From the NCBI GenBank assembly GCA_018500015.2, contig JAHBAR020000012.1, positions 1 through 53,275 on the forward strand: a stretch of 53,275 bases of DNA, in the 5' to 3' direction. The number at the start of each line of letters is the position of its first letter. Positions within the stretch are counted from its first letter, which is position 1. The position numbers were made by a program, and so were the translations under genes. The DNA is from Candidatus Kerfeldbacteria bacterium. GTDB taxonomy: Bacteria > Patescibacteriota > Patescibacteriia > UBA9570 > XYC2-FULL-38-9. Positions 39-45,221 of the stretch are shown here, piece by piece. Below the pieces are notes generated by a model. It was not told where the DNA came from and made no database searches. It saw only the letters and a program-made list of their open reading frames with translations.

Positions 39-60
39 TGTGCGGCGACTATCCAAGCAT

Positions 61-119
61 GTCATTGCGAGGAGACACGTCACTCGCGAGTGACGTGTCG
101 ACGAAGCAATCTTGTTGTT
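61..119 (+). repeat. R1 palindromic repeat, copy 1
   Basis: This 59-nt unit begins GTCATTGCGAGGA and ends GACGAAGCAATCTTGTTGTT. Its core (73-98) is a perfect 26-nt palindrome, and ATTGC near the left end can pair with GCAAT near the right end. It is identical to the copy at 2633-2691. Related units occur at about 2571, 16058, 16097, 26722, 26777, 43841 and 47163. Confidence 0.9.
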
Positions 120-127
120 AAGGATAT

Positions 128-809: not shown

Positions 810-958
810 TGTAGGGAATTGTCGAATTGCAGAGACGCACAATGCGCCTCTCTGGCGTTCTTTGAAAACATCAAAAAACCTCAGAAAAGCACATACTTTT
901 TTGAAAAGTATGACGAAGTAAGATAACAGAAAATGGGTGTTTTGTCAACCCAAGCTTC
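810..958. other. Intergenic region between orphan gene and truD
   Basis: No gene was recognised. The stretch holds two small inverted repeats: AGAGACGCA/TGCGCCTCT (831-851) and CATACTTTT/AAAAGTATG (892-912). No clear promoter for the minus-strand orphan gene could be picked. Confidence 0.5.
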
Positions 959-1093
959 GCCCTGCACCCCTGCAGGAAAACGGTGTCGGCGCTCTCCGAG
1001 CTGCGCGCCGCACCTCTTGCTCACTGGCGTGGCCGCTTTCAGCGGACCAAGCCCACGCCAAGTTCCGCAGGTTTCCTGACAGAGGCACAGGGC
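959..1093 (+). repeat. R2 structured repeat, copy 1
   Basis: This is one of three copies (others 12233-12369 on the minus strand and 43658-43797). Conserved blocks are CAGGAAAACGGTGTC, GCACCTCTTGCTCA, ACCAAG and CCGCAGGTTTCCTGA. Between them lie stems that keep pairing while the bases change: an outer GCCCTG/CAGGGC, stem 1 GGTG-t-CGGCGC with GCGCCG-CACC, and stem 2 GGCGTGG/CCACGCC with inner CCGCT/AGCGG. It lies just upstream of the truD promoter. Confidence 0.85.
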
Positions 1094-1155
1094 TGCGCTG
1101 TGACAAAAGGACGGGAGAGGGTAGAAGAGAAATAGCCGCATACGTAAATTCCCTG

Positions 1156-12162: not shown

Positions 12163-12232
12163 CACATCAGGACGACGACACTTTAGGCGGAATGTTCTTC
12201 TTCTCTCCCTCCCAATGTCAAAAAGTTGTGCA

Positions 12233-12369
12233 GCTCTGGTGCCTGTTCAGGAAACCTGCGGAGCTGAGTGCGAGCTTGGTTCGCTTGAAAAGCGGTTGCA
12301 CCAGTGAGCAAGAGGTGCCGCCTCCCGCAGGAGGAGGCGGACACCGTTTTCCTGACACAGGTACAGAGC
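12233..12369 (-). repeat. R2 structured repeat, copy 2 (minus strand)
   Basis: This is the same conserved blocks as copy 1, in the opposite orientation. Stem 1 is CCGCCTCC/GGAGGCGG, stem 2 has GTGC/GCAC with inner CGCTT/AAGCG, and the outer stem is GCTCTG/CAGAGC with CCTGT/ACAGG. The pairing is kept though the bases differ from copies 1 and 3. It ends 11 nt before the rpsP -35 box. Confidence 0.85.
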
Positions 12370-12380
12370 GAGAGCTGGAG

Positions 12381-42012: not shown

Positions 42013-42846
42013 ATGTTCCGTCGATTGCGATGGTGCATTATTGGAATAGTGCTCGGGATTATTGTTTCTTTAGTAGCAATTGTTGGTGTTGCGTATCTCA
42101 CTGCTCCACAATGGTATCGAGTGTTATTTATTGGTTCAGATCAGCGTGGTGCTGAGCGCGCACGTTCAGATGTGATGGTTGTGCTGAATATTCCTCGAGA
42201 TGCAAAAAAAGCTCCAGTATTACTGAGTGTTCCTCGTGACACGAGAGTTGACGATGCTGAATATGGCTTGCAAAAAATGACACACTTTTATGCATTTGGT
42301 GAGCGCCCTGATGAAGAAAAACTACTTGGTAACATTGATCTTACAAAACGCCATATTGAAGAGTTGTTAGATCTGCCTATTGATGCAACGATTGAAGTGT
42401 CATTTCAAAGTTTTACGGAGATTGTAAATAGCTTGGGCACAGTGTGCGTAGAGTCGAATTGCGACACTGATGGTGAGGAGGCACTCAAAATTATTCGTGA
42501 TCGTTTTTCAGAAGGACGTTCTGACTTTTCGCGACAAAGTGATGAGCGTGATGTGATTTCTTCGATCATCAGTCAACTGCAATCACGCGTTGCAATCACT
42601 AAAGTTACAGATATTTTTAATACTTCAAAAACCGCCCGATTATATTACGATCAACCAAAGTTTTTGCACTTCATGCTTGGCTATATGATTGATCATAAAG
42701 GTAAAATTTCATTTCAGGAGTACCAGTCGTTGAGTGTTCCGGGAAGTTCTGATATGGTGTTCACAGAAAGTTTTGGGAAAAAGCTGTATTATTGGATCCC
42801 GGACACACAAAAGCTTTCAGAAATTGTGAATACGCAATTGAACTAA
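42013..42846 (+). CDS. LytR-CpsA-Psr (LCP) family protein
   Basis: LCP enzymes transfer lipid-linked glycopolymers to peptidoglycan or to proteins outside the membrane. 277 residues: a short basic cytoplasmic start, one N-terminal helix (IIGIVLGIIVSLVAIVGVAYL), then the LCP domain with VLFIGSDQRGAERARSDVMVVLNI, LLSVPRDTRVDD (the PRDT motif), KMTHFYAFG and IRDRFSEGRSDFSRQSDERDVISSI (the RxxxxxSDxxRxxRQ-like motif). It fits with the O-antigen-ligase-like and nucleotidyltransferase genes as part of surface glycan assembly. Confidence 0.9.
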   Translation: MFRRLRWCIIGIVLGIIVSLVAIVGVAYLTAPQWYRVLFIGSDQRGAERARSDVMVVLNIPRDAKKAPVLLSVPRDTRVDDAEYGLQKMTHFYAFGERPDEEKLLGNIDLTKRHIEELLDLPIDATIEVSFQSFTEIVNSLGTVCVESNCDTDGEEALKIIRDRFSEGRSDFSRQSDERDVISSIISQLQSRVAITKVTDIFNTSKTARLYYDQPKFLHFMLGYMIDHKGKISFQEYQSLSVPGSSDMVFTESFGKKLYYWIPDTQKLSEIVNTQLN

Positions 42847-42848
42847 CT

Positions 42849-43646
42849 ATGGGTAACGCAAAAATTGTTTTTGATATTGAAACACAGAAGACATTCGATG
42901 AAGTTGGAGGAATAGATCATCGTGATGAATTGGGAGTATCTTATGTTGGTGTCTATTCATATTCTCAGGACAAACTTTTTGGTTTTTTTGAAGACCAAAT
43001 TGAAGCGTTAGAAAAAATTATCATGGCAGAAAAACCAACATTGATTGGTTTTAACTCCATTCATTTTGACGTACCTGTCATGCAGCCGTATTTTAAACAT
43101 TTTGATTTACAGCAGCTACCTCACCTAGACTTGCTTAAAGAAGTAGAGAAAATTTTAGGGCATCGTTTGAAGCTCGATAGTATTGCGCAGTCAACGCTCT
43201 ATACAAAAAAGTCTGGCATGGGCCTAGACGCTATTCGCTGGTATCGTTCGGGTGAGTTGGAAAAGCTCGCGCGCTATTGTTTGGATGATGTTGAAATTAC
43301 GCGCGACGTGTATGAATATGGTTTGAATCATGGCGTAATATATTATAGCAATGCTGGTCAAAAAACAGCGGTGAAGGCAAGCTGGTCAACAGGTGAGACT
43401 GTGCAGGAGAAAGTAGAGCGTGCATTGAAGGATCATAAAACCCTGAAGATTGTCTATATTCAAGGTGATGAAAGTACTGGAGATCGATCAACAGAATTAT
43501 ATACCATCAACATCCTTGAACGTTCAGGAATGAATTTGAATGTCTACATTGAGGAAAAATCAGAGCCTATGCAAATCAGCATTGATCGTATTTTTAAAGT
43601 CCACGAAACCGACAATAAGTTTGCTCATCAGGGAGCACTATTTTAA
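42849..43646 (+). CDS. DEDD-type 3'-5' exonuclease with C-terminal WYL-like domain
   Basis: 265 residues in two parts. Residues 1-165 are an RNase H-fold exonuclease: FDIET (D9, E11), IGFNSIHFD (D74) and YCLDDVEITRDVYEYG (Y143, D147), i.e. the DEDDy pattern of PolB-exonuclease-like proteins. Residues about 185-253 read VERALKDHKTLKIVYIQ... GDRSTELYTINILE...LNVYIEE...ISIDRIFKV, resembling the WYL ligand/nucleic-acid-binding beta fold. Start 42849 is 2 nt after the LCP stop. The exonuclease call is firm in outline; the WYL call is by eye. Confidence 0.75.
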   Translation: MGNAKIVFDIETQKTFDEVGGIDHRDELGVSYVGVYSYSQDKLFGFFEDQIEALEKIIMAEKPTLIGFNSIHFDVPVMQPYFKHFDLQQLPHLDLLKEVEKILGHRLKLDSIAQSTLYTKKSGMGLDAIRWYRSGELEKLARYCLDDVEITRDVYEYGLNHGVIYYSNAGQKTAVKASWSTGETVQEKVERALKDHKTLKIVYIQGDESTGDRSTELYTINILERSGMNLNVYIEEKSEPMQISIDRIFKVHETDNKFAHQGALF

Positions 43647-43657
43647 GTTGGCGCTAC

Positions 43658-43797
43658 GCTCTGTACCTTCACAGGAAAACGGTGTCGGCGCTCTCCTGCG
43701 GAGCGCCGCACCTCTTGCTCAGCAGTTGCGGTTCGCTTATACAGCGAACACCAAGCCGCAACAGCTTCCGCAGGTTTCCTGACGAAGGCGACAGAGC
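43658..43797 (+). repeat. R2 structured repeat, copy 3
   Basis: The blocks are shared with copies 1 and 2. Stem 1 is CGGCGCTC/GAGCGCCG, stem 2 GTTGCGG/CCGCAAC with inner TTCGCT/AGCGAA, and the outer stem GCTCTGT/ACAGAGC with CCTTC/GAAGG. It lies 11 nt after the exonuclease stop and 43 nt before an R1 repeat. Confidence 0.87.
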
Positions 43798-43840
43798 TCC
43801 GCTATCCAAAAAAAACAACACTCCGCCTGATCTAATTTTT

Positions 43841-43874
43841 GTCATTGCGAGCGCAGCGAAGCAATCTTGTTGTT
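43841..43874 (+). repeat. R1 repeat, short form
   Basis: GTCATTGCGAGCGCAGCG runs straight into AAGCAATCTTGTTGTT without the long central palindrome. Its right end touches the stop codon of the minus-strand HhH gene. Confidence 0.85.
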
Positions 43875-44149
43875 TACAATACGGTCGCGAGTTTAGTGGC
43901 CATTGTAAAACGTTTGAAGAAAGAGCTGGAAGCTACAGTTGCTGGTTTTTCTGTTTGAGCTGGAGTGAAGCGCGCAACGCCAAAGGAAGTCACTTTTTTG
44001 ATGCTTGGACCAAAGAGTTCAACGAGTACTTGATCGGGAATGCGAGCGAGTTGACCAAATGTGTGAATGTCGAGGTCGTGCAGCACAGCTGCTGTTCTGC
44101 GACCGATACCGGGGACAAATTGGACTGGCGTGTTTGATGCGATAGACAT
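43874..44149 (-). CDS. Small helix-hairpin-helix protein
   Basis: 91 residues. Residues 10-50 (FVPGIGRRTAAVLHDLDIHTFGQLARIPDQVLVELFGPSIKK) are a helix-hairpin-helix unit like that in Y-family polymerases (DinB) or in UvrC C-termini, binding DNA backbone without sequence preference. The remaining 40 residues are basic and of no known type. It could be a stand-alone DNA-binding module or a remnant of dinB; no polymerase catalytic part is found upstream. lexA is transcribed toward it, and uvrC in this window lacks its own HhH. Confidence 0.65.
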   Translation of the reverse strand: MSIASNTPVQFVPGIGRRTAAVLHDLDIHTFGQLARIPDQVLVELFGPSIKKVTSFGVARFTPAQTEKPATVASSSFFKRFTMATKLATVL

Positions 44150-44585: not shown

Positions 44586-45221
44586 TCAATGATATGACCG
44601 AATGACACCGACGACTTTGCCTTGAATTGAAACTGAGGGAACAAGAATTGGTGGATACTTTGGATTGCGAGGCTGCAGACGAACGTGATCTTTTTCTTTG
44701 TAGAACGCTTTGAGTGTTGCGGTTCCGTTTTCGAGAAGTGCGACGACGATGTCGCCATTTTGTGCTGTATTCTGTTTTTGGCAGATGACATAGTCGCCAT
44801 TTTCGATTGAGCTTTCAACCATTGAGTCACCTTTGACTTTGAGGACGAAGCAATTTTCGTTGGGAACAAGTGCTTGAGGGACTGCGAGAGTTTGTGAGCG
44901 ATCTTCAAGAGCTTCAATTGGGCTGCCGGCGGTGATCAGGCCGAGTACAGGGAGTTCGAAAAAGGGGTTGTATGTGGTCTCGCTTTCGTCGCGCTCAGTG
45001 TGCTTGGTTTCGGTTTGACTCACCACCTCCATCTCTCTGCCGTCGCGTTTGATGAACCCGTGATCTTCGAGGTACTGGAGGTGTTCGTGAACAGTCGCTG
45101 CGGATGAGAGGTTGAATGCCTCTTTGATGTCGGTGAGCGTTGGGGCGTATCCGCGCTCATCGATGTACTCAGTGATGTAGGCGAGGATGCGTTGCTTTTG
45201 TTTGGGGAGAATTTTGATCAT
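44586..45221 (-). CDS. lexA: SOS repressor LexA
   Basis: LexA represses SOS genes and cleaves itself when RecA filaments form. The 211-residue protein has an N-terminal winged helix (PKQKQRILAYITEYIDERGYAPTLTDIKEAFNLSSAATVHEHLQYLEDHGFI), the cleavage bond Ala98-Gly99 in ITAGSPIEA, and the catalytic dyad Ser133 (KGDSM) and Lys171 (TLKAF) in the S24-type peptidase domain. Its promoter carries a GTTC-N7-GTTC direct repeat, suggesting autoregulation. The gene is divergent from murE. Confidence 0.96.
   Translation of the reverse strand: MIKILPKQKQRILAYITEYIDERGYAPTLTDIKEAFNLSSAATVHEHLQYLEDHGFIKRDGREMEVVSQTETKHTERDESETTYNPFFELPVLGLITAGSPIEALEDRSQTLAVPQALVPNENCFVLKVKGDSMVESSIENGDYVICQKQNTAQNGDIVVALLENGTATLKAFYKEKDHVRLQPRNPKYPPILVPSVSIQGKVVGVIRSYH

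Follow-up and report, generated by a model that had tools for sequence, protein, structure and literature searches.

What keeps the stems of a repeat paired while their letters change from copy to copy is the question raised by the stretch of DNA analysed here (the window, 53,275 nucleotides in full). The first-pass annotation had placed three copies of such a repeat in the window, each holding four short sequence blocks, and knew of no family to which they belong. All three copies are real and lie where they had been placed (Table 1), and the four blocks were located in each of them in the contig sequence, with CAGGAAAACGGTGTC exact at 973-987, 12340-12354 (minus strand) and 43672-43686, and GCAGGTTTCCTGA exact at 1067-1079, 12247-12259 (minus strand) and 43770-43782. 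The folds of these copies are better than those of 200 out of 200 dinucleotide shuffles on both strands, with z-scores of -3.9 to -8.1 on the plus strand and -5.1 to -5.8 on the minus strand. A core of roughly 100 bases, found in a phylum of tiny genomes and framed in each copy by arms of its own, is suggestive of a mobile palindrome of a little-known type.

Table 1. Copies of the element in the window and the parts of copy 1 (window positions)
Feature	Position	Strand	Basis
Copy 1, whole three-way-junction element	954..1097	+	R1 155 bits, R2 133 bits (covariance models)
Copy 1 core, P1 CAGGAAA to its partner TTTCCTG, hairpins P2 and P3 included	973..1078	+	Alignment with 7 other copies
Copy 1 hairpin P2 (GGTG-T-CGGCGC ... 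GCGCCG-CACC), bulged T986	982..1014	+	Fold and pair counts
Copy 1 arm P3 (CTTGC ... GCAGG) with inner hairpin	1016..1071	+	Fold and pair counts
Copy 1 unpaired bulge ACCAAGC, strongly conserved	1046..1052	+	A, C, C, G, C 94-100% conserved in 80 copies
Copy 1 left outer arm, with TTTTGTCA	940..979	+	30/41 aligned positions pair with 1072-1108
Copy 1 right outer arm, ending TGACAAAA	1072..1108	+	Complementary to left arm
Copy 2, whole element	12229..12374	-	R1 153 bits
Copy 3, whole element	43653..43801	+	R1 119 bits

A folded repeat in many genomes

A first covariance model (R1), built from seven copies of the window's own genome, recovered 13 elements there, four of them too divergent for a pattern search, and a second model (R2), built from 17 copies, added one more at C43. 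The original count of three was thus too low, the genome holding at least 13 good copies (13-14 with the second model) together with a chimera and a 3′ remnant. The blocks are met again at C2, C6, C12, C36 and C45, some with one or two mismatches; the copy at C36 (L047) has a core like that of copy 1 except at the tip of P3, and the locus sequence places one divergent copy (C45:10582-10729) next to dnaA. The chimera (L057, C28:5576-5753) carries the outer ends of the family around a different interior, a portion of which repeats, in inverted orientation, DNA located some 200 bp upstream. The remnant (L018, C27:10864) is a lone 3′ end beside a tRNA-Gly gene, apparently the product of decay.

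Eighty copies share one three-way junction, composed of an outer stem, hairpin P2 with the loop CTCCnGCG, and arm P3, which ends in a hairpin and bears the TCC and ACCAAGC bulges; RNAalifold recovers this junction unaided, the base of P2 excepted. Pairing holds in 90.1% of the cells of these copies; changes on both sides of the pair affect 1,265 cells, against about 40 with a change on a single side. The compensated stem changes that had been described hold within the seven own-genome copies, where 14 of 41 pairs show double-sided changes, a number reached by none of 500 shuffles and nowhere approached by slid structures. Across the 80 copies, too, the covariation is strong against slid and shuffled pair counts, which supports that part of the earlier reading. 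The letters conserved in at least 85% of the 80 copies are almost all unpaired (the bulged T, the P2 loop, and the TCC and ACCAAGC bulges), so the folded form probably has a reader, for which a protein that recognizes unpaired letters in folded DNA is the candidate. In two copies, L050 (C2) and L298 (G736), another sequence inserted in the P2 loop forms nested hairpins, the insert in L050 being palindromic (CCTGCCTGCCGG..GGCAGG).

Further copies, which the first-pass annotation had named as a sign in its favour, were found by covariance-model search both in the same genome and across the phylum. Under strict filters, the second model detects the family in 18 of the 380 genomes sampled from the phylum. 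The richest carriers hold 14, 13, 8 and 7 copies, others 1-4 and one further genome 9; these numbers are lower bounds, given that extra copies surfaced in the retrieved loci. Scanning 84,980 species genomes with a pattern, and confirming the matches with the model, added members in a Liptonbacteria MAG, a Parcubacteria MAG and one further MAG, from which, along with the earlier annotation, we infer that the phylum is Patescibacteria. The distribution is patchy: some genomes hold 7-14 copies and none were found in same-family relatives, including a relative of the eight-copy genome and, at the stringency used, four further genomes from the family to which the window's own genome belongs. BLAST against phages and plasmids returned no match to the element, and pattern and model searches of viral contigs yielded no convincing member. 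Rfam gave no match in the window, in keeping with the absence of a known family noted earlier, and on 20 related loci gave just a nearby tRNA and sub-threshold chance matches. The element is not a simple repeat, no description of it was found in the literature searched, and the family is apparently undescribed so far.

Cores, arms and gene ends

Copies in the same genome share the core alone, about 90-125 bp in length; their flanking sequence is mostly unrelated, yet the left and right outer arms of each copy, about 16-60 bp, are complementary to one another. The aligned core of about 97 bp is identical between L296 and L298 of G736, one loop insert aside, and that of about 106 bp differs by a single mismatch between L060 and L065 of G228, while the cores are about 95% identical for L297 and L299 of G729 and about 89% for L205 and L222 of G495; each of these pairs has unrelated arms. 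Such pairwise alignments are more reliable than the screening core identities, which ignore gaps and are therefore generous. Self-complementarity of the arms reaches 26/26 in L205, 18/19 in L222, 22/22 in L237 and 20/20 in L297, and 65 of the 80 copies have at least 20 aligned arm positions, the borders between arm and core being set by alignment and uncertain by several bases. Near-identical cores with self-made arms are an unusual signature. Related arms are common to some copies (G045 L242-L246, G052 and G672), so arms can be inherited, and the proposal that every arm is captured flank is weakened by those of G045.

With gene calls taken as simple open reading frame picks of at least 110 codons, 31 copies have their start between -30 and +20 nt relative to the stop codon that ends a gene upstream on the same strand, against 4 in the mirror arrangement; copy 3 of the window starts directly after the gene at 42792-43646 and its stop codon. 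The left arm overlaps a coding end in seven copies and the right side does so in one, a sign that of the two arms the left is native. The L296 copy follows a tRNA-Ser gene, and the L051 copy, judged by eye, apparently follows a 5S rRNA gene. No neighbouring gene family recurs (the most frequent, AAA, is present at 3 of 72), and a check for target-site duplication gave a mean longest direct repeat at the element ends of 3.80 against 3.54 +/- 0.11 expected.

Origin of the covariation and mode of spread

The compensated pairing had been read as a mark of selection on structure, whether RNA or cruciform DNA; DNA structure fits better, and selection on RNA is disfavoured by the absence of a G-U excess and by the uncoupling of cores from arms. 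RNA helices tolerate G-U but not A-C pairs. At the 41 paired positions of the 80 copies, 62 G-U and 65 A-C combinations were counted, against 30 and 1 in control stems at fixed positions of 30 tRNAs from the same set of loci (Fisher p 2.5e-7; 6e-9 for the inner helices alone, both overstating certainty since the cells are not independent). The ratio is un-RNA-like even though the alignment model favours G-U. A strand test on isolated mismatches gave a hint of the minus strand and was not relied on, as loop composition confounds it (strict subset 25 vs 15, p 0.15). Copying between arms yields perfect pairing without wobble intermediates, and template switching creates and maintains perfect hairpins (PMC8794818). 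Because near-identical cores bear unrelated, self-complementary arms, slow compensatory evolution cannot be the source, and copying of DNA from arm to arm, rather than selection, is the probable origin of much of the covariation. Very strong covariation is what normally counts as proof that an RNA structure is functional; here even perfect base-pair covariation is no proof of a working RNA and points to DNA copying, which calls for caution in structured-RNA screens.

It is accordingly unlikely that the element is a structured RNA, either a 3′ UTR element or a small RNA, with stems covarying under selection for RNA structure. The strong covariation and the conserved unpaired letters would fit such an RNA, and the 31 to 4 bias towards a start directly past a same-strand gene's stop codon suits a transcribed 3′-end element. 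The base-pair counts and the unrelated arms on identical cores tell against it, however, as do copy 1, which is flanked by divergent genes, the 7-14 paralogues in some genomes of about 1 Mb, and the lack, by eye, of a T run past either end or of a conserved promoter.

The reading that we prefer, with a probability of slightly over one half (about 0.55), is a dispersed, non-autonomous mobile palindrome of structured DNA, its arms produced by fold-back copying. The coexistence of near-identical cores and unrelated, self-complementary arms implies that the core moves and that it is in DNA that the arms arise or are rewritten, although both the mobility of the core and the direction of copying are inferences. 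A single-stranded core would fold into the three-way junction and be joined to one flank, after which the inserted or replicating strand would, at the core's base, turn back on itself and prime the copying of one flank, usually that beside the 3′ end of the upstream gene, into its inverted complement; repair would follow, and later template switching would keep arms and hairpins perfect. More tentatively, the folded single-stranded core may join the 3′ side of a gene end, prime its own extension and copy the target flank backwards, each insertion thereby creating an inverted repeat of its own, at least about 25 bp long, with a phylum-conserved protein reading the unpaired junction letters. If insertion does copy the flank backwards, this would be a new way of making inverted repeats. 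Weighing against the preferred reading, no transposase was linked to the copies of the element, no clear target-site duplication was seen, and some copies have related arms.

Alternatively, the core could insert midway into long palindromes that already exist and supply the arms, and the sequences lodged in the hairpin loops of L050 (itself palindromic) and L298 indicate that loops can be targets. We consider this quite improbable: perfect inverted repeats of at least 20 bp with short spacers are almost absent from the same loci outside the element and the REP-like palindromes, which makes ready-made targets less likely; moreover, the arms are AT-rich or ordinary sequence as opposed to terminators, and their complementarity often fades outward into the flanks. 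Still less probable are old, fixed palindromes homogenized in place by template switching and by gene conversion between cores, without transposition. The perfecting of hairpins by template switching is documented (PMC8794818), and in the window's own genome P2 types are combined with differing P3 and arm types, but the presence of the element is patchy, many copies occupy unrelated sites, and identical cores within unrelated flanks require some dispersal step.

That the element is of REP/REPIN type and is mobilized by a Y1 (RAYT) transposase is very improbable indeed, and this reading is already largely refuted. The window's own genome encodes five divergent RAYT-like Y1 transposases (L280, L283-L287; C28, C4, C13, C41 and C5), most of them beside short palindromes such as GGTCGGACCTT..., AAATCCGATTTGG... 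and AAAGGGGCAGCCC.... These palindromes are not the present element, which comes near a RAYT gene only as the distant chimera on C28, and no Y1_Tnp was found in G406, G228, G672 or G495, carriers of 3-8 copies; RAYT was accordingly rejected as the mobilizer. A reverse transcriptase is not required either, there being no RVT_1 match in seven carrier genomes (G406, G672, G495, G535, G729, G656 and G045), and both enzymes are unlikely to mobilize the element.

Known repeats and other features of the window

The attC sites of integrons, in which stems vary while certain unpaired bases stay fixed, are recognized in folded single-stranded form, and the element resembles them; its arms lack the RYYYAAC and GTTRRRY boxes, and none of the 80 copies has both. 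MITEs are likewise short, non-coding and dispersed in several copies, but constant terminal inverted repeats are expected among their copies, whereas arms here are unrelated between near-identical cores. Among the MITE-like palindromes of bacteria, ERIC (127 bp) and the Rickettsia palindromic elements (about 150 bp) are similarly dispersed, foldable and of comparable size. Both are sequence families with inherited ends, in contrast to the differing outer arms around near-identical cores and the phylum-wide three-way-junction core with strongly conserved unpaired letters described here. ERIC and QMITE2 include copies within the 3′ ends of genes (PMC10969869). REP and REPIN sequences with RAYT are also intergenic palindromes, and RAYT genes are present in the window's own genome; REPs are 20-40 bp long with GTAG/CGTC tags (PMC3733652), against about 140 bp for the element, and the RAYT genes adjoin other palindromes.

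The repetitive hairpin elements of sponge mitochondria, for which we know of no enzyme, can be likened to the element by description. They too are repetitive hairpins in compact genomes, in their case organellar (PMC2800124).

A gene for a LexA-like repressor lies near copy 3 (44589-45221, minus strand). A separate dispersed repeat with a palindromic middle occupies window positions 60-120 (TCATTGCGAGG ... GAAGCAATCTTGTTGTT), and a relative of it sits beside copy 3 at about 43840-43875.
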